This document shows, piece by piece, positions 3,614 to 32,993 of a stretch of 35,095 nucleotides of DNA; position 1 is the stretch's first letter; each line of letters starts with the position of its first letter. The notes beneath the pieces are model-generated. The model was not told the origin of the DNA. It was given only the letters and a program-made list of their open reading frames with translations, and did not search any database. The translations under genes and the position numbers were made by a program. Origin of the DNA: a virus; IMG/VR virus record IMGVR_UViG_3300018083_000078, positions 1 to 35,095 of that record. The stretch is one strand, 5' to 3'.

Positions 3614-3835
3614 AACTTCCTCACCTCCCTTCGTCAAATCGTGACACACGAACACATTATGAACGCCTGGGAGCTTTAGTACAACCTCCTTGGACGACTT
3701 CTGTTGACTCTTAGTTGAGGTCTATATGGCTACCGTAGTAATAGCTGCTACAGCTAACGGGGCCATGGGGTAGGTACAACGTTCTCATTGTCCGCTGGGA
3801 GGTGTATAGTATGTGGTAACCTATTGGAGGTAATC
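3614..3835. promoter_or_regulatory. Divergent control region between leftward and rightward operons
   Basis: This 222-bp gap separates outward-reading genes. It holds a 15-bp palindrome, TAGCTGCTACAGCTA (3742-3756, 6-bp arms, 3-bp centre), a likely operator. A candidate rightward promoter is TTCTCA (3782-3787), 17 bp, TATAGT (3805-3810). A micro-ORF ATG-TGG-TAA at 3811, with GGGAGG before it, precedes the terminase ribosome site. I could not pick a convincing leftward promoter by eye. Confidence 0.45.
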
Positions 3836-4372
3836 TTGGCGGTTCCACGTCCGAATCCCAAAGAAAAGAAGAACCTGCCAGCTGTGGCTGAGGCAAATGG
3901 CACGGATACCCGGACGGCAATGCAGAAACTGGATCCCATCCAGAAGCGCCTCGTCCTGTGGGTAGCAAAAAAGAAGTCTCATACGGAGTTTGCGCGGAAG
4001 AATGCGAAGGCCCTTGTGCCCAAGCACGACGGTTCCAAGCAAGATCTCATGAAGAAGGCCCGTGCCAGAGTCAGAGCAGTGATGGTCACGCAAGACTTCC
4101 GTGATGCCCTCTGGGAATGGTCTCTTATGGGGGTAGATTTGGCCATGCCGGACATAACAGCGGGCATCATCGGCAAGGCATCAGCTGGCCGCGTAGATGC
4201 GGCGCGCTTGGCCATGGAGATAACAGGGCGCCATGCGCCTAACTCTGAGGTGCAACCTGCTGCCATTCAGATAGTCCTACAAAATGTGCCTAGGCCTGCT
4301 GTATCCGAAGAGATAGTTGACGGGGATGCCGAGGAGATAGTGGATGGAGAGCTTGACGAGGAGGCTCTTTAG
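3836..4372 (+). CDS. terS: Probable terminase small subunit, 178 aa
   Basis: The start is TTG 3836, with TTGGAGG ending 6 nt upstream; the first residues are MAVPRPNPKEKKNLPAV. The N-terminal half contains helices around DPIQKRLVLWVAKKKSHTEFARKNA (residues about 33-60), consistent with an HTH DNA-binding domain. A helical centre follows, with GKASAGRVDAARLAMEITGR (about 126-145), a pattern typical of small terminases. The C-terminus is acidic with the repeat EEIVDG. Small terminases bind packaging sites as oligomeric rings and recruit the ATPase. The large terminase lies about 3.5 kb downstream with fibre genes and a leftward gene between. No database comparison was made, so the call rests on helix pattern and position. 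Confidence 0.6.
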   Translation: MAVPRPNPKEKKNLPAVAEANGTDTRTAMQKLDPIQKRLVLWVAKKKSHTEFARKNAKALVPKHDGSKQDLMKKARARVRAVMVTQDFRDALWEWSLMGVDLAMPDITAGIIGKASAGRVDAARLAMEITGRHAPNSEVQPAAIQIVLQNVPRPAVSEEIVDGDAEEIVDGELDEEAL

Positions 4373-4535
4373 CTACATGGCCGCGCCGTTATATATATCC
4401 ATGGAAGCCAGCCCAGTGGCCGGTGAGGTGCGCAGTGACGGTAGCCAGCTAAATGGCCGCGTTGAGAAACAGAACGACGGTAGTCAGCTAAATGGCCGGT
4501 TCCCGAGCCCCCCCATCACTCTCCATATGGCCGCG
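4371..4535. repeat. Direct repeats around AGCTAAATGGCCG next to the small terminase
   Basis: Two near-identical 23-bp copies at 4437-4459 and 4476-4498 (one mismatch, 39-bp period) share the core CAGCTAAATGGCCG. A variant, AGCTACATGGCCGCG, begins at 4371 overlapping the terS stop, and a shorter ATATGGCCGCG occurs near 4525. The 39-bp period keeps the codon phase, but no plausible gene reads through it. Repeats just 3' of a small terminase gene are good candidates for a packaging (pac) site. A transcriptional role is also possible. Confidence 0.5.
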
Positions 4536-4553
4536 CCCTCCGCGCCGCACAAA

Positions 4554-4571
4554 TGCCCCCTTTCGGGGGCA
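4554..4571. terminator. Hairpin TGCCCCC-TTTC-GGGGGCA, possible terminator of terS
   Basis: This is a perfect 7-bp GC stem with a four-base loop, about 180 bp after terS. No T-run follows on the plus strand, so it may be a weak or factor-dependent terminator, or simply an RNA-stabilising hairpin. It marks the left border of the CGTNACG-rich block. Confidence 0.4.
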
Positions 4572-4791
4572 CTCGCATCGCGTTACGTGACGTGTGGCAC
4601 GATGACGAACCATACAAACATGGCGACCGTGACGACCCACGTCACCGGCACGAGTAACGATGCGCTACGCATTGACGCTGCCGAACACGTGACGCATGAC
4701 GAGGCGGCGTGCGGCGTGACGAGTGAGGTTATCGTAACGCTTCTGACCGATGATGATTCGCATGATGCTCCGATCGTAGTGATGGGATGGT

Positions 4792-4822
4792 GTGATGGGG
4801 GCTGTTTAACACTCCCCATCAC
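4792..4822 (-). terminator. Hairpin 38 bp downstream of the leftward gene
   Basis: GTGATGGGG (4792-4800) and CCCCATCAC (4814-4822) form a perfect 9-bp stem around a 13-nt loop. It lies just beyond the stop of the leftward gene at 4860 and probably terminates or stabilises its transcript. No clear T-run follows, so intrinsic termination is uncertain. Confidence 0.45.
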
Positions 4823-4859
4823 GTTGCGCCAGTGTCAGCGGCGTGTGAGCGTATCGCCG

Positions 4860-5165
4860 TTACGCGATAGGCGGCTCGGCAGGCGTGTCGCCCGTGACGT
4901 TCGGCGTATCGGCCTTCTTCGCCTTCCGCTTGCGCGATGCGGCGAGATATGCCTTAGCGTCGAACGTAACGCCCTTCTGCTTCGCCTTCCATGCTGCCGT
5001 AACGAACGCGATCTGAGCATCGTTGAGATACCAGCTCGTACCCATTACGTCACGCGGGAAGTAACGCCGGAGCAACGGACGAACGAACGTCTTGCCCACC
5101 TTCTCACGATTGGCCGATCCTGCCAGCTTCTCAGCAAGCGCGTTCGGCGTCATGATGTTGGCCAT
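4860..5165 (-). CDS. Small basic protein, putative DNA-binding, lone leftward gene, 101 aa
   Basis: I choose ATG 5165 (MANIMTPNALAEKLAG), because GGAGGGAGGTGATTTCACT lies upstream. The N-terminal part (TPNALAEKLAGSANREKVGKTFVRPLLRR) resembles small phage and actinobacterial DNA-binding modules in which an xALAxxL helix precedes a winged or Lsr2-like element. WYLNDAQIAFVTAAW follows, then a basic tail, SRKRKAKKAD, and a Pro/Thr-rich end. It stands alone, antisense to its neighbours, with its own leader and downstream hairpin, like a moron cassette. The whole cassette is saturated with CGTNACG, so the protein may bind that motif; this is inference. Its base pattern differs visibly from neighbouring genes. 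Confidence 0.6.
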   Translation of the reverse strand: MANIMTPNALAEKLAGSANREKVGKTFVRPLLRRYFPRDVMGTSWYLNDAQIAFVTAAWKAKQKGVTFDAKAYLAASRKRKAKKADTPNVTGDTPAEPPIA

Positions 5166-5391
5166 AGTGAAATCACCTCCCTCCCTGCGCGGTTGCGCGG
5201 CCGTGACGTGACGAGACAACTCTCCCTCGGCGACGTGACGTGTCGCGTCATGATGAGTAGGGGTTGCCCGTGTCAACGTCATACCCATAGACTATATGAC
5301 GTGACGTTACGTTACAAGGGTCAGCGTTACGTAATTCCCGCAAATAGCGACATTCGCTGTTATGCCGATGGGACGCATACTACGCATGATG

Positions 5392-5475
5392 TTGTCACGT
5401 TACGCAACGCATCACACCGTCGTCACGCTAGACAACGCATCACGCTGTTGTCACGTCACGCAACGCACCCCCCAC
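5392..5475. repeat. Three tandem 28-bp repeats (iteron-like)
   Basis: Units start at 5392, 5420 and 5448, each beginning TTGTCACG or TCGTCACG and carrying CAACGCATCAC or CAACGCACC. Units 1 and 2 differ at a handful of positions; unit 3 decays into a C-rich run at its end. Each unit contains a CGTNACG. Contiguous 28-bp spacing without spacers fits an iteron or operator array and not CRISPR. The array ends about 125 bp before the fibre gene's GTG; the AT-rich leader in between may hold its promoter, although I could not fix one. Confidence 0.65.
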
Positions 5476-5601
5476 CCCCCCATCGGGCGCACGTGTGTTG
5501 TCAAAATAGAATTCGCCCTAGACCTAGACTTTTCTCTCTAAAATTCTCTCCTACGTATCCGCGTATCGTGTTCTGTAGTACTACCTTAAGGGAGGATTCA
5601 A

Positions 5602-6954
5602 GTGCCTAAGACGATTAGGTCGACGGCGATTACCGAGTCGGCGTTGATTCTAGAAGCGCGAGCAGGACAGACTGCTGCACTGCTTCAGGCTTTGATCTCA
5701 GGTAGCCTGATTGATGTAGTAGATGCTAATGGCGCTGTTATTGGTGGGGGAGGGGGAGTTAACAGCATCCTCTACTCTAGTCGTGCCGCCAATACCATCC
5801 TGGGAGCTGCAGATCGAGCGAAGGTGATCTCTGCTACTGCTACCTTCACCCAGACCCTAACGGCTGCTGCTACTCTCACTGCCGGCTGGTGGTGTATCCT
5901 CCAGAACAACACTACTGACGGCATAACAATCCTCACTGTGGACCCCAATGGTGCTGAGACAGTTGATGGGTTGGCCACAATGGTGATGTACTCAGGAGAG
6001 GTAAGACTACTCATCTGCGACGGCACCAACTTCTTCTCCATCATGTACCAGGGCGGGTATGCCAAGTTCATCGCCACAGGGAACTTCATCGGTCCTGCTG
6101 GTTGCAAGAGAGTCGACTACGACCTCATCGCCCCTGGCGGGGTTGGTGGAGCTGGTACTGGTGCTGCTGCTGGTAATGCACGGCCGGGGGGTTCAGGTGG
6201 GGGTGGTGGAGCCAGATCTCAAGGCTTCTTGCCAGCTTCTGCTTTCACTCCCGGTGCTACCCATGCTGTAACCCTATCAACCTCAACTACCACGTTCATG
6301 AGTGCTCAGGCTTATAAGGGGGGAGCAGGTCAGCCTGGTGATCCCGCCAACGACTTCTCCGGAGGTTCTGGGGGCGGTATTGGAGAATTCGGCTATCCAG
6401 GTGATGTAGTTGCAATCCCCGGCGGGGGCCACAGACTACCAGACACTGCGGGTATCAGTGGGAACTGGCCAATGTCTGGTATGGGCGGAGCTGGTGGAGA
6501 TGCTGACCCCGCCACCAGCCACGGCATAGGAGCAGATTGGGGCGGAGGTTCTGGCGGCCCCAACAAGAAAGCTCCTTCGGGAACTGGCGCTCCAGGCGGA
6601 ACTAGCTGTCGTGGGGGAGGCGGAGGCGCAGCAGGCGGTGGTGTGAGTGTTGGCAATGCCGCCTTCAATGGAGGGGTAGGCGGAAACTCAGGCTTCTTCA
6701 CTGAGACTGGCGGTAACGGGGGTGGCGCTGGTGGAGCTAACACAGGTGCACCTGGTGTTGCTGGTGCTGACTGGACCTCTTCTCAGTCTGGTAAGGGCGG
6801 AGGAGGCGGCGGCGGTAATACTGCTGGTACCGGTGGTGCTGGGGGCAATGGCGGTATCCCAGGAGGTGGAGGTGGGGGCGGAGGCGGAGGAACCCCAACA
6901 GGAGGCGCAGGCGGAACTGGCGGTCGAGGCGAAGGTCGCATCACGTACTCGTAG
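5602..6954 (+). CDS. Glycine-rich tail fibre / receptor-binding adhesin, 450 aa
   Basis: GTG 5602 follows AAGGGAGGA. Residues 1-46 (MPKTIRSTAITESALILEA...) form a short module that recurs at the start of the 7332-7883 gene. Residues about 55-165 look like a beta fibre domain (GWWCILQNNTTDGITIL, SGEVRLLICDGTNFFSIMY). From about 165 to the end the chain is extremely Gly-rich with GGxGG runs, like phage glycine-rich adhesin domains that form polyglycine-II sandwiches at fibre tips. The final residues, GRGEGRITYS, would close the fold. It probably contacts the host receptor. Its place before the large terminase is unusual. The C-terminal region is repetitive at the DNA level, so length variation is likely. 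Confidence 0.75.
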   Translation: MPKTIRSTAITESALILEARAGQTAALLQALISGSLIDVVDANGAVIGGGGGVNSILYSSRAANTILGAADRAKVISATATFTQTLTAAATLTAGWWCILQNNTTDGITILTVDPNGAETVDGLATMVMYSGEVRLLICDGTNFFSIMYQGGYAKFIATGNFIGPAGCKRVDYDLIAPGGVGGAGTGAAAGNARPGGSGGGGGARSQGFLPASAFTPGATHAVTLSTSTTTFMSAQAYKGGAGQPGDPANDFSGGSGGGIGEFGYPGDVVAIPGGGHRLPDTAGISGNWPMSGMGGAGGDADPATSHGIGADWGGGSGGPNKKAPSGTGAPGGTSCRGGGGGAAGGGVSVGNAAFNGGVGGNSGFFTETGGNGGGAGGANTGAPGVAGADWTSSQSGKGGGGGGGNTAGTGGAGGNGGIPGGGGGGGGGGTPTGGAGGTGGRGEGRITYS

Positions 6955-7332: not shown

Positions 7333-7883
7333 TGCCCCCTCCTCCTATGCCTAAGACATTCAAAGCTGCGGCAGTAACCGAAGCAGCGATCGTCTTGGAG
7401 GCCTTGCCTGGCCAGACAGGACCTCTGCTTCAAGTTCGTCTGAGCAATGGTACTCTAGTGAATGTGGTCCTTGCTGCAGGCACAGTTGCCCCCGGGCTCT
7501 TCGGTGGGCCTATCACTATCCCTTATGCCTTCGACGCTGACCAGCTGAATCCAGCGGTTGGTCCAGCTGATGGCGGCATCCACTTCAACCAGGCAGTTCA
7601 GCTTAATGCCACTATCCTCAGCCTAGCATGGCTAGCTGGGGATAATGCTGACTGGTCTTCGGTTACTAACACGATGGCTGACAGTACTAGCACGATCAAG
7701 GGCAAGCTGAGGGTCGTCAAGGTCAGTAATCCATCCATCTGGATCCTCTACAATGTTCTGTCTATCAGTGTCCAAGCAGGCTGGACTAATGTCGGAGTTT
7801 CCGCTGTAGGAGGGTCAGGGTCTATGGCTGACGGCGATTCGGTCGTAGTTCTCTTCGGCATGAATGGGGACAAGGGGGCCTAG
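7332..7883 (+). CDS. Fibre-module protein sharing domains with two other fibres, 183 aa
   Basis: ATG 7332 overlaps the upstream stop; an in-frame ATG at 7347 (MPKTFKAAA) is an alternative and aligns with the first residue of the 5602 protein. After the N-terminal module (residues about 6-50, LEALPGQTGPLLQ), the rest resembles a domain of the 19468 fibre: both have an N-x-AT core, then DSTSxIKxxLxxxKV, then VxxVGGxGS and a gDxV...GDxG ending. It is therefore a compact fibre or adaptor built from shared parts. It may anchor or cap the Gly-rich adhesin. Function inferred from domain sharing. Confidence 0.6.
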   Translation: MPPPPMPKTFKAAAVTEAAIVLEALPGQTGPLLQVRLSNGTLVNVVLAAGTVAPGLFGGPITIPYAFDADQLNPAVGPADGGIHFNQAVQLNATILSLAWLAGDNADWSSVTNTMADSTSTIKGKLRVVKVSNPSIWILYNVLSISVQAGWTNVGVSAVGGSGSMADGDSVVVLFGMNGDKGA

Positions 7884-9367
7884 TGCCGGTCAAGGCTTAC
7901 AAGATCAGTCGTGGTACAAAGCGAGTCGAACTCGACTATAACCCGATGGCTAAACAAGGCCAAGCGCATCAGCTGGTGGCGAAGTATCGCGGCTTCTGCG
8001 GGGGATGGGGTAACGGGAAGACTAGCTTTGGCTGCGCTGAGACGTTCACTCGCCTGCATGAGTATCCAGGGACCCGAGCAATTGTAGCCCGTAAGACACG
8101 TCCTGAGTTGAAGTCTACTACCTGGGACATGCTGGTCAACGGGGATCCTGGTACTCCAGGCGCGTGGACGGGAATACCGAAGGAGACTATCGCCTCGATC
8201 AATAAGGCGGATATGATAATCACCTTCCGCAATAAGTCGGTCATCTATGGGCTCCCACTAGACGACCCAGCTAAGATCGAGAACTATAACCTTGGCTTCT
8301 TCTGGGTAGATCAGGCTGAAGAGATCGAGGAGGACATCTTCCTTAAGTTCCACGGTCGTTTGCGTCAGCGCATCGGACCTCGAGAGGGAGTACTAACATT
8401 TAACCCCAACGGGCACAACTGGCTGTGGCATCGCTTCATCAACCCCGCTCGACCGCTGAGGTGGAACAAGTTCTACAAGTGCATCGAAGCAACTACCTTC
8501 GATAACGTCAACCTACCTGACGATTATCTTGAGCAATTCGAGGGCCTGCCTGAGGCATGGATCCAGCGTTATATCCATGGCTCACATGAAGTCTTCGTCG
8601 GTCAGATCTTTACTGACTGGAACCCCGAGATCCATGTCATTCAGCCTTTCAGGCTACCTATGCACTGGGAACGCTGGTTCTGTATGGACCCAGGCATCCG
8701 GCATGAAGCTGCTGCTTCCTGGATGGCCCGAGATCCGTTGGATAACTGGTACTACTATCGCGAGCATCTGGAGCCCAATCAGGACGTTGCGTGGTGGTCG
8801 AAGAAGATCATCGCTATGGAGGCAGAGGATGACTTCGGCGGACCTCACGAGTCGATCCATAGGCGATTGATTGGACCTGAGTCTCAGCAGCGTTCGCAAA
8901 CGGATGGCAAGACTGTCCTGGACATCTTCAACGAGAATGGGATCTATCCTGAGGTTGCTGACCGTTCACCGGCAGCGCGCATCTCGAGGATTACAGAGTT
9001 GCTGCGCCCGAAGGGCGGCCATCGAAACCCGTTTACTGGAGCTACGCCTGGCCCGCGTTTGTATGTCTTTGATACCTGCGACAAGATGAAGAGGTACCTC
9101 CCACAGTATAGATGGGTGCCCGTGCGAGTAAGCTATACGGAGGAGGACTCGCCCGAGCGCCCGAGGAAGAAGGACGACCACAACATCGACAACTGTGGTC
9201 ACATCGTAGTAGCTGCTGATAGACAGGTGAAGGAGGACGATGGTAGGAGGCCGTACGAGAACTCAGAGCAGCGTGTGAAGCGTGAGCTTGATGAGGCTGC
9301 TTACATGGAGGCGGAGCAACAGAAGAGGGGTCGGCATTATCATCCAGAGCTAGGGAGGGTGGCATGA
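7883..9367 (+). CDS. terL: Terminase large subunit, 494 aa
   Basis: The packaging motor ATPase and nuclease. Walker A is GGWGNGKT at residues 40-47; Walker B is FFWVDQAEE with D143 and E146; a coupling motif LTFNPNG lies at 171-177. The nuclease part begins with MDPG (D269) and ends with a DDHNID cluster near 431-436, the expected metal-binding acids. The length is normal for the family. Start GTG 7883 overlaps the previous TAG, with GGGGG upstream. The stop overlaps the amidase start (ATGA). It works with the small terminase and the portal to fill the capsid. Confidence 0.9.
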   Translation: MPVKAYKISRGTKRVELDYNPMAKQGQAHQLVAKYRGFCGGWGNGKTSFGCAETFTRLHEYPGTRAIVARKTRPELKSTTWDMLVNGDPGTPGAWTGIPKETIASINKADMIITFRNKSVIYGLPLDDPAKIENYNLGFFWVDQAEEIEEDIFLKFHGRLRQRIGPREGVLTFNPNGHNWLWHRFINPARPLRWNKFYKCIEATTFDNVNLPDDYLEQFEGLPEAWIQRYIHGSHEVFVGQIFTDWNPEIHVIQPFRLPMHWERWFCMDPGIRHEAAASWMARDPLDNWYYYREHLEPNQDVAWWSKKIIAMEAEDDFGGPHESIHRRLIGPESQQRSQTDGKTVLDIFNENGIYPEVADRSPAARISRITELLRPKGGHRNPFTGATPGPRLYVFDTCDKMKRYLPQYRWVPVRVSYTEEDSPERPRKKDDHNIDNCGHIVVAADRQVKEDDGRRPYENSEQRVKRELDEAAYMEAEQQKRGRHYHPELGRVA

Positions 9368-15064: not shown

Positions 15065-16378
15065 ATGGCACAGTCTACGACCACCGCTGATGCAGCCCTG
15101 CAGAACTACTACCTGCCAGTGCTGCGAGAGCAGATCAACCAGCGAGCCCTCCTGCTCTTCGGGTACAGCCCGTCCGAGCTGGAAGCTGGTATGGGTCATG
15201 CCAATGCGGCTAACGGAGAAACCATCAACTATGGTGGGATCATCCGCGACGCGGAGAAGTTCGAGTACGCCGGTCGTGCATGGTTCTTCGCTGCCCACAC
15301 GGCACGGAACGAGTCTGGTACCGCTACGTCTGAAGGCGGATTCATTCCACTGGCTGGACAGCAGGGGTACGCTAGCTTCACTGACACGGTGAAGCACTTC
15401 TACAAGCAGATCGAAATCTCGGGCTTCGCGATGGAGGTTTCCGAGCGGTCTGTTGGCGCGTACCTCAAGCTCCTCCAGGGTGAGACCGAGGGAGCGATCA
15501 ACGACGCTCGGTACTCCCTCAACCGCGAGGGCTACGGCGACAAGACGGGGACGCTCACAGCGATCACAGCGGACGGCGCTAACACGTTCACTGTGGCATC
15601 TGTGCAGTATCTGAGGGTGGGACAGCGGATCGATCTCATCAACATCACCAACGACACCGTCCTTGCTTCGAACCGGACGATCACCGCCATCAACCAGACT
15701 ACGAAGGTCATCACCTACAACGGTGCTGATGTGGCAACGGTTGCCGGTACCCACGTTCCGTGCATCACGGGTAACTGGAAGAAGGAGATCAACGGTCTCA
15801 CCAACATCATCAACGATGGTACTACTGCTGCCTATGCAACGCTGCACGGCGTGAACCGCACGACTGCCGGCAACGAGTACTGGCAGGGGAAGATCTACGA
15901 CGGCCTCGGGGTGACGTTCGATGAGGACCAAGGTTGTCAGATCCTCGATGATGTAGCAACCGAGGGTTACGAGACGGAGATCATCATCACGACTCGTGGT
16001 GTTCGCCGTCGGTACGTCAACACCCTCAAGGCACAGAAGCGCTTCAACGACAGCATGAGCGGTGTGCTGCACGGAGGCTTCAAGACCATCGACTTCAACG
16101 GCATGCCGCTGGTGATAGACGATCAGTGCCCCAAGGGCAACATGTGGTTCCTCCGGCCCAGCGACTTCGCGTGGTTCTGGCTCGGAGCGAATGACTTCCG
16201 TTGGCTCAACCGCGACGGTAAGGTGCTCCGCATGGTGCTTGGTTCTGGCGTTAACGGTGAAGACCAGGACCAGTGGAGAGCGACCACGTACCGCTTCCAC
16301 GACCTCGCCTGTACGCGCACTAAGACACAGGCGAGACTGTTCAACCTTGCTGACGACGCAGCGAAGGTCATGTCGTAA
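15065..16378 (+). CDS. Major capsid protein, 437 aa
   Basis: AGGAAGGAGCAAC precedes ATG 15065. The protein starts MAQSTTTADAALQNYYLPVL and has an E-loop-like start (residues about 35-100 with FEYAGRAWFFAAHTARNESG), then a central TVKHFYKQIEISGFAMEVSERS. An inserted beta region follows (residues about 160-230, TLTAITADGANTFTVASV, VGQRIDLI). The C-terminal P-domain-like part contains FDEDQGCQILDDVATEGYETEIIITTRGVRRRYVN and MWFLRPSDFAWFWLGAND. This is the HK97-fold layout, with an I-domain-like insert as in P22-type coats. Position after scaffold and decoration genes agrees. A strong hairpin follows. Confidence 0.85.
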   Translation: MAQSTTTADAALQNYYLPVLREQINQRALLLFGYSPSELEAGMGHANAANGETINYGGIIRDAEKFEYAGRAWFFAAHTARNESGTATSEGGFIPLAGQQGYASFTDTVKHFYKQIEISGFAMEVSERSVGAYLKLLQGETEGAINDARYSLNREGYGDKTGTLTAITADGANTFTVASVQYLRVGQRIDLINITNDTVLASNRTITAINQTTKVITYNGADVATVAGTHVPCITGNWKKEINGLTNIINDGTTAAYATLHGVNRTTAGNEYWQGKIYDGLGVTFDEDQGCQILDDVATEGYETEIIITTRGVRRRYVNTLKAQKRFNDSMSGVLHGGFKTIDFNGMPLVIDDQCPKGNMWFLRPSDFAWFWLGANDFRWLNRDGKVLRMVLGSGVNGEDQDQWRATTYRFHDLACTRTKTQARLFNLADDAAKVMS

Positions 16379-31716: not shown

Positions 31717-32806
31717 ACCGCTCAGCCTCCATCTTGTAGTTGTGCTTGATAAGAGGCTCTACGTCTAGCCCCTGGAAGTCAGCAACGCACAAGTCGTGGT
31801 AGTCACAGTTCCACTTACAGTTGTAGAGGTAAGTGCGAATGGGGTCACCCCGACGTTCTATCTCACGACACGCGAGAATAAACTCGTGGAACCCAAACTT
31901 CATGCGTGGACCTTCTAGAGGAATGCGTTCGCGCCGGAACCAGAGGACGTCACGGTTCTTCAACTCCTCCAGTTTGTCGCGGTAGCGGTTCTTGACGAAG
32001 CGTTTCCACTCATCGCCATGAGCCCGCTTGATCGCAGCAAGATAGACAGCGTAGGTAGTATCACAACGAGCCAACGACACTGAGCCCGCAGGGCCATACT
32101 TCGTATTGCTCTTGAGGATCGTCGGTTCTGTAGGCACTTTGGTACGGCCGTAGTCGTAGATGAACCCGCCTAGATCGAAGCCCAGCTTCTTCAGGCCCCA
32201 GCCGTAGATGATGTTCTGAGGGCTCATCATTCGCTCGTCGGGGTTTGGGATAGACTTCACCCACTTCCCGTCACGTACCCACAGGTTACCGTATTCGAGG
32301 TCTTCTACCATCAGGTCGATCTTACCCTTCAAGCTACCCTTGAGTCCGAACTTCTTGAGCGGCACAGTGATGATGAACTCGATAGCTGGCTTACCATCCG
32401 GTAGCGTGGCTATCTTGAACCGTTCGTCCTCGTCTTTGTAGTAGCGTAGGTAGCCCGAGAACATATTGGCACACTCGGTAGGGAGATCACCAAGACGTTC
32501 TTTCTCCTCGTCGAATAGCTTGTTGAATTCTGCCGTCAGCTTCTTGTGCCTCTTCTCCCATCCCCCCTTCTTGATGCCTGCAACCTGTAGCCAATGTGCC
32601 TCCTGCAGTTCGTGCATCCATGAGCCCCGTCTCAACCCTACGCCAGGCTTAGTAGCAACAAGCTCACCATCCTTGATACCCATCTCCAGGCGGGGGTAAT
32701 CGTATCGGTAGTAGTACTGTTGCCTACACCGAAGGAACGACTTCACCCGAGACTGATTAAAGGCCTTAGTCGGGGGCAACACGACTTGCTGAGATGAATC
32801 TCTCAA
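31694..32806 (-). CDS. Cas4/RecB-like PD-(D/E)xK nuclease with Fe-S cysteines, 370 aa
   Basis: TTG 32806 has GGAGG 6 nt upstream, so I use that start. C27 (SFLRCRQQYYYRY) together with C330, C334 and C340 (YNCKWNCDYHDLC) gives the four-cysteine cluster of Cas4 and AddB nucleases. H65 lies in GSWMHELQEAHW; GKIDL holds D164; DGK at 179-181 may be the motif III acid-Lys; QNIIYGWGL (Q198) is the QxxxY motif. This predicts 5'- or 3'-resecting exonuclease activity on recombination ends. Motif III is less canonical than usual. Its start lies within the HTH gene's end. Confidence 0.75.
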   Translation of the reverse strand: MRDSSQQVVLPPTKAFNQSRVKSFLRCRQQYYYRYDYPRLEMGIKDGELVATKPGVGLRRGSWMHELQEAHWLQVAGIKKGGWEKRHKKLTAEFNKLFDEEKERLGDLPTECANMFSGYLRYYKDEDERFKIATLPDGKPAIEFIITVPLKKFGLKGSLKGKIDLMVEDLEYGNLWVRDGKWVKSIPNPDERMMSPQNIIYGWGLKKLGFDLGGFIYDYGRTKVPTEPTILKSNTKYGPAGSVSLARCDTTYAVYLAAIKRAHGDEWKRFVKNRYRDKLEELKNRDVLWFRRERIPLEGPRMKFGFHEFILACREIERRGDPIRTYLYNCKWNCDYHDLCVADFQGLDVEPLIKHNYKMEAERYGTEEIE

Positions 32807-32966
32807 GTTCCGCCTCCTCCACTCTCCAACTGTGGTTATTCATCTTGACCCCTGCCATCGTTCCATCTCGACAGTACTTAGCTACTGTCCTCGGCTTGAC
32901 TCCCAGTCGCTCTGCCACCTCCCTGGGCTTCAAGAGTCTAGTTCCACGATTCTTCATACGTGACAT
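32766..32966 (-). CDS. Excisionase/MerR-like HTH protein, 66 aa
   Basis: The sequence KPREVAERLGVKPRTVAKYCRDG followed by SWRVEEAELERFI is the HTH_17 pattern of small excisionase or DNA-binding proteins. Start ATG 32966 (MSRMKNRG) has GGTGGTG upstream; ATG 32957 is an alternative. It overlaps the nuclease gene by 41 bp. No integrase is seen, so it is more likely a regulator or replication accessory than an excisionase. Confidence 0.7.
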   Translation of the reverse strand: MSRMKNRGTRLLKPREVAERLGVKPRTVAKYCRDGTMAGVKMNNHSWRVEEAELERFISASRVAPD

Positions 32967-32993
32967 TATACATCACCACCCTTAGTACTCAAA
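32966..32993 (-). promoter_or_regulatory. Candidate promoter before the HTH gene
   Basis: On the minus strand TTGAGT, 16 bp, TATAAT (32971-32966) lies across the end of the polymerase gene. The -10 overlaps the annotated ATG, so a transcript from it would need the ATG at 32957 or the next gene as its first start. It could drive the HTH and nuclease genes. Weak evidence. Confidence 0.3.

Follow-up and report, generated by a model that had tools for sequence, protein, structure and literature searches.

The window analysed here is an entire IMG/VR record, a contig of 35,095 bp from a soil phage, in which an array of the palindromic heptamer CGTNACG sits between a rightward TerS-like gene and the structural operon that contains terL (Table 1). 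A leftward gene for a 101-aa basic protein lies within the array. The gene to the right of the array encodes a glycine-rich protein that has no match in Pfam or PHROGs, and none by tblastn in the three nearest relatives. The window also contains portal, family A DNA polymerase, PD-(D/E)XK exonuclease and Sak4-like genes, and its capsid protein (15065-16378) shares 24-32% identity with the capsid proteins of Arthrobacter phages Jasmine and Adat, Microbacterium phage Shocker and Cellulosimicrobium phage DS1. The name TerS is used tentatively, because it is based on a weak match of a homolog to Sf6_terminase (E = 0.16). The contig ends share no direct repeat, a kind of feature that metagenome assemblies collapse. 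Known RNA families have no match anywhere in the window, and promoter and terminator scans gave no signal above shuffles.

Table 1. Coordinates of the array, its neighbours in the window, and comparable small elements in relatives.
Feature	Position	Strand	Evidence or context
TerS-like gene, directly left of array	3788..4372	+	27 homologs among the ORFs, each to the left of whichever leftward gene is nearest TerL
Two copies of CTAAATGGCC	4449..4500	+	downstream of TerS-like stop
CGTNACG array, 20 sites	4581..5460	none	local dinucleotide shuffles and control windows
CGTNACG starts, left part	4581, 4586, 4628, 4688, 4715, 4733		block 4581-4739, left of 101-aa gene
CGTNACG starts, middle part	4858, 4893, 4965, 4998, 5048		block 4858-5054, in or at 101-aa gene
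CGTNACG starts, right part	5202, 5207, 5234, 5300, 5305, 5325, 5398, 5421, 5454		block 5202-5460, right of 101-aa gene
Putative 29-aa single-TM peptide MRSASLLVPVTWVVTVAMFVWFVIVPHVT	4583..4672	-	inside left part of array
101-aa basic protein gene (A-type small HTH, candidate array reader)	4860..5165	-	family of 43 ORFs
450-aa glycine-rich protein, right of array	5602-6954	+	ORF
terL, terminase large subunit	7883..9367	+	Terminase_3 8e-9; phrog_2 4e-27
CTATATGGCC-like elements in relatives	L018 3997-4078; L045 5638-6125; L037 4860-5318		
Tiny hydrophobic ORFs in relatives	L010 7117-7233; L013 3129-3206		also in L028, L032, L035, L043, L044, L027

By exact count, CGTNACG occurs 25 times in the window, and 20 of these sites fall within 4581-5460, as a sequence-only reading of the same DNA had reported. 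Dinucleotide shuffles of the whole window (n = 100) contain 7.1 copies on average and 12 at most, and 2,000 dinucleotide-preserving shuffles of 4561-5480 give 1.19 ± 1.08 copies, with a maximum of 7. The composition-matched expectation is therefore about 1.2, and the earlier estimate of about 0.2 was too low. No class of gapped palindromes of the form XYZnZ'Y'X' exceeds seven copies in the shuffles of 4561-5480. The other 34 kb hold five sites (1447, 10108, 31948, 32269 and 33789), approximately the chance number; the earlier reading listed four and overlooked the one at 1447. The log10 P of the array is -32.6, the strongest of all loci tested; since such values assume a Poisson background, the control windows are the better guide to them, and here 0 of 56 are as extreme.

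The sites extend across non-coding DNA and the leftward gene, with six to the left of the gene, five in or at it and nine to its right. They are denser outside the coding sequence, yet some lie inside it. Three pairs overlap at a distance of 5 bp (4581/4586, 5202/5207 and 5300/5305), and both of these aspects of the layout agree with the earlier description. The centre base is free among the 20 sites (G9, T5, A3, C3), the spacing is irregular, and helical phasing is absent. The preferred gap from CpG to CpG is 3 bp in the window, versus 2 bp in phages whose word is CGAACG.

The 101-aa protein has no match in Pfam or PHROG. Its AF2 model (pLDDT 80) has four helices, and a fold search with this model places MerR-type proteins (CvkR, CarH, RacA and GlnR) at the top, with a best E of 0.46, which is not significant. 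The matches include complexes of RacA with DNA, at a TM of 0.60-0.65 by target and E > 1. No terminase subunit is among the best matches, which are regulators or RacA and all lack significance. One homolog (L013:2685-2972) matches MerR_1 with an E of 5e-4 and 20.5 bits, below the cut-off of 21.6. An iterated HMM from five starting proteins defines an A-type family of 43 ORFs, often with two copies per phage. One of the 43 is a generic HTH_17 gene of the window itself (ORF 32769-32972, gene 32766-32966 on the minus strand; 43.9 bits), which adjoins the DNA polymerase gene and has no array. A second set of leftward basic genes, the B-type, comprises nine loci plus L094 and L089. The A and B profiles give a pairwise E of 0.0012 and a low HH probability, the pattern K-x-x-R-x-x-x-R is common to both, and the two types are probably but not certainly homologous.

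Within the A-type proteins the conserved helix reads K-x-[VL]-R-x-x-L-R. The window copy is one residue longer, so that its presumed recognition helix is KTFVRPLLR versus KR-VRSFLR. Its closest homolog, at 49% identity, is the product of the L018 gene, which sits in an array of 24 copies of CGAACG. In L013, L022, L028, L045 and others, the second HTH copy, nearer to TerS, is usually without a strong array of its own, and the array therefore goes with the HTH copy nearest TerL.

Single-sequence scans found no close relatives of the 101-aa and TerS-like proteins, and relatives were then collected with TerL profiles (60 and 80 contigs, in overlapping sets). No isolated phage with the small gene was found by tblastn, and no prophage or host was found in GTDB genomes by TerL profile. 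In 33 contigs a small leftward basic gene lies on the 5' side of terL, and wherever the TerS-like gene is in view, the small gene comes directly after it. In all of the closer relatives with a TerS-like gene and enough flank, the leftward gene follows immediately 3', and B-type genes occupy the same place. For each contig, we compared the word with the highest enrichment near the leftward gene with those of approximately 50 control windows of equal size. For 26 of the 33 loci no control window is as extreme as that of the leftward gene, and 20 loci reach log10 P <= -8, although one of these (L073) does so by poly-C only and is not counted as an array. The other seven have no array stronger than all control windows. 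In members without a clear array (L035, L037, L068, L047 and others), the array is not obligatory, or is degenerate.

The array recurs at a fixed place, with a word that changes between phages. CGAACG/CGTTCG arrays are present in L018, L028, L022, L034, L045, L063, L013, L027 and L010 (the last also with CGTACG and CGATCG), and CGTSAC/CGTNACG arrays in the B-type loci L046, L048, L061, L056, L052, L054 and others. L089 has 20 copies of CGCGCG, L094 has CGTACG plus CGAACG, L042 has CGTATC, and L030, L043, L032 and L044 have CACRCG/ACACAC. Nearly all of these words hold one or two CpG, and the non-palindromic ones occur in both orientations. L032 and L044, at 74% identity, share 8 of their 17 and 15 sites with density kept, and such turnover is expected where the number of sites outweighs their arrangement. 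Strong word clusters in L146 and L147 were rejected as arrays, since the small gene is absent there and the cluster of L147 is a coding repeat; AAGAAG matches, probably lysine-rich coding DNA, were also set aside.

By TerL the window groups with the CGAACG-kind phages, but it shares its word with the distant B-type phages. The earlier reading took absence of the array from close relatives as a possible refutation. None of the three nearest relatives has a CGTNACG cluster, but in two of them an array with another word occupies this place, and the contig of the third stops short of it. Absence of the exact motif from the nearest relatives is therefore misleading as a refutation, since more distant phages carry a CGTNACG/CGTSAC array. 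More generally, a motif that is missing in close relatives can still be a conserved feature with a changed word. There is good support for a role at the DNA level, as proposed earlier: the array runs through coding as well as non-coding DNA, recurs at the same place, and uses both orientations where the relatives' words are not palindromic. The array is a family-wide feature, and we found no prior description of such arrays beside phage terminase genes in the searchable literature, a scope that excludes most subscription papers.

Several known systems share parts of this architecture. Phage P1 starts packaging at pac, a cluster of hexamers (seven TGATCA/G elements) inside the coding sequence of its packaging gene pacA, under Dam control. 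Like pac, the array described here repeats a short word several times in or next to terminase genes, but the gene enclosing the array is not a known terminase subunit, its word changes between phages, and CGTNACG does not contain the GATC on which adenine methylation would act. The SRL and SRR arrays of T7 consist of direct, regularly spaced heptamers beside the terminal repeats, and contain no gene. Here too short words are clustered, in T7 near the ends of a podovirus genome, whereas in our phages the spacing is irregular, both orientations occur and a gene lies inside. In the Streptomyces TraB/TRS system, clt repeats are clusters of short words that differ by element and address a DNA-moving ATPase; the wHTH domain of TraB is part of the ATPase itself, while the candidate reader in the phages is a separate small protein.

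By analogy, the nearest documented architecture appears to be the SpdA2/sps system of the Streptomyces plasmid pIJ101, in which a small protein was shown by gel shift to bind palindromes in its own coding sequence, and related plasmids carry slightly altered palindromes (PMC4170104). In both cases short palindromes lie within the gene of a small DNA-binding protein, although for the phages binding is predicted from the architecture. The plasmid system usually has two or three copies of 12 bp, and the phage arrays 15-27 copies of 6-7 bp; it is also a plasmid stability gene and does not lie beside terminase genes, unlike the phage array. Gene order is similar in the cultured phages Jasmine, Adat and Shocker, in which a leftward gene (Lsr2-like in Jasmine and Adat) precedes the rightward terL operon and lies in the terminal direct repeat. 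Jasmine is a podovirus whose 1,330-bp terminal repeat holds the Lsr2-like gene (PMC5513430). The repeats of Jasmine and Shocker contain no motif array and have different genes, and they differ in both respects from the window.

We infer that the array is read by the local small HTH protein, a reading that we hold to be somewhat more probable than its alternatives combined. The encoded protein is a natural candidate, because it is always present, is basic, and has a predicted fold (pLDDT 80) that resembles MerR-type DNA-binding domains, with no significant E. The proteins encoded in the arrays share the K-x-x-R-x-x-x-R helix. Within this helix, the residue after R is aromatic in CGAACG phages and L, R or K in CGTNACG phages, a pattern that is suggestive only, as the cases are too few. 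The extra helix residue and changed word of the window fit a reader with shifted contacts, in what is a single case.

Under this proposal the array would act in cis as a binding site in many copies, and its ligand would be the small winged-HTH-like protein that it encodes. Numerous molecules of the protein would occupy the short sites, which lie close together, and cover the DNA from the TerS-like gene to the terminase and structural operon. The resulting nucleoprotein block would most likely label the concatemer of the phage itself, as a terminase address for packaging or for the formation of ends. The word would drift or switch between phages, with the place, the gene and the high density of sites being kept. 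Packaging is favored because of the constant place between TerS and TerL, and because the leftward gene of the cultured cousins lies in the terminal repeat. This output is the weakest step, resting as it does on synteny with those repeats, and the explanation as a whole, a local-protein binding array used for packaging or end marking, is put forward tentatively. Several results speak against it: seven of the 33 loci lack an array that exceeds all control windows, the terminal repeats of Jasmine and Shocker contain none, the window's contig shows no terminal repeat, and the top fold matches do not include terminase subunits. Slightly more tentative still is the broader idea of a self-address system in this phage clade. 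Each phage would combine a small HTH protein with a dense array of the 6-7 bp word belonging to that protein, maintained at the terminase junction across distant phages, and by switching words each lineage would single out its own genome alone for packaging or end processing. Clustering of contig ends at the arrays, considered as a sign of genome ends, is weak once the size of the contigs is allowed for. L061 had seemed to end at the array, but its assembly is circular, joined through a 123-bp overlap of a kind that can arise as a k-mer artefact, and it was rejected as an example of a genome ending there.

The strongest rival keeps the same protein and gives it another task. As an autoregulator or local nucleoid-type silencer, it would sit on the array and shut down its own leftward promoter, the gene of the tiny TM peptide and possibly the divergent late promoter, with packaging not involved. 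The array has its center at the gene and extends over both the 5' region of the gene and the divergent gap before the rightward operon, its left part covers tiny hydrophobic ORFs, the fold neighbors are MerR-type regulators, and the gene at the corresponding place in Jasmine encodes an Lsr2-like silencer homolog (PMC5513430). We hold this strong rival to be a little less probable than the packaging explanation. Against it, 15-27 sites running through a coding sequence exceed the need of a promoter operator, no sigma-70-like promoter was found in 4300-5700, and the constant place beside the terminase genes is left unexplained. Alternatively, the array might be a centromere-like cluster for segregation, anchoring or origin function, with a RacA- or SpdA-like reader and the tiny TM peptide perhaps as a membrane anchor. 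The RacA-DNA complexes among the fold matches (at E > 1), the tiny TM ORFs of the cassette, and SpdA2, which binds palindromes in its own gene and influences segregational stability (PMC4170104), are consistent with such a role. Against it, none of 15 records searched (many of 46-48 kb) encodes a ParA-type ATPase (PF13614, the one partition family covered; positive in 14 of 14 control genomes) or a tyrosine integrase (PF00589, the one integrase family covered). As both families are absent, there is no sign of a plasmid or lysogenic stage, and we consider this role improbable.

The remaining alternatives leave the small gene out. If TerS, a host factor or a restriction/modification enzyme were the reader, the small gene would be a bystander. 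Word similarity follows TerL distance and HTH distance alike in Mantel tests; however, the partial correlation with TerL distance (r 0.24-0.26, p <= 0.005) is better than that with HTH distance given TerL (r 0.08-0.12 within the A-type, not significant), and L030 and L032 have near-identical DNA-binding domains and partly different words. These results argue for another reader. Its probability is nonetheless rather low, as the array has the small gene at its center and leaves the TerS-like gene uncovered, and as the same 15 records have no C5 or N4/N6 methyltransferase (PF00145 and PF01555, the two families covered). Among the roles listed in the sequence-only reading, the binding array of the local protein and the packaging site thus remain the best candidates, while partition and methylation are weakened by the absence of ParA and of these methyltransferase domains. 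Finally, the array could lack any DNA-level function and be the product of drifting short repeats or of a local bias in mutation or composition, such as a CpG-rich patch. CpG is indeed raised in most arrays, but CpG-rich composition does not explain the 20 sites, because local shuffles that keep it give 1.2 sites and never more than seven. Enrichment at the same place with different words in 26 of 33 loci, and the irregular spacing and both orientations, which do not fit slippage, also speak against this explanation, which we consider very improbable.

If the encoded proteins read the arrays, the clade would be a natural series of matched protein and word pairs. The window and L018, with proteins that are 49% identical and words that differ, are one example, which could teach how a small HTH protein changes its word. 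Should packaging also be directed by the arrays, they would reveal how a phage keeps its packaging signal private, and the genome ends of uncultured phages could be placed from sequence alone.

Further small elements accompany the array. At its right edge in L013 (3630-3710), L028 (5110-5170), L030 (1020-1080), L032 (5710-5770) and others, poly-C is followed by a conserved GAGCGAAGCGAG element, which precedes the rightward operon; the window shows poly-C runs only, near 5468-5482. In approximately ten phages the small HTH gene has beside it a tiny leftward ORF whose product, with one or two hydrophobic segments, could be a toxin, a membrane anchor or a peptide for superinfection exclusion. Immediately past the TerS-like gene, many A-type relatives have one to four plus-strand copies of CTATATGGCC-like elements, which form a separate conserved element and possibly the TerS site.
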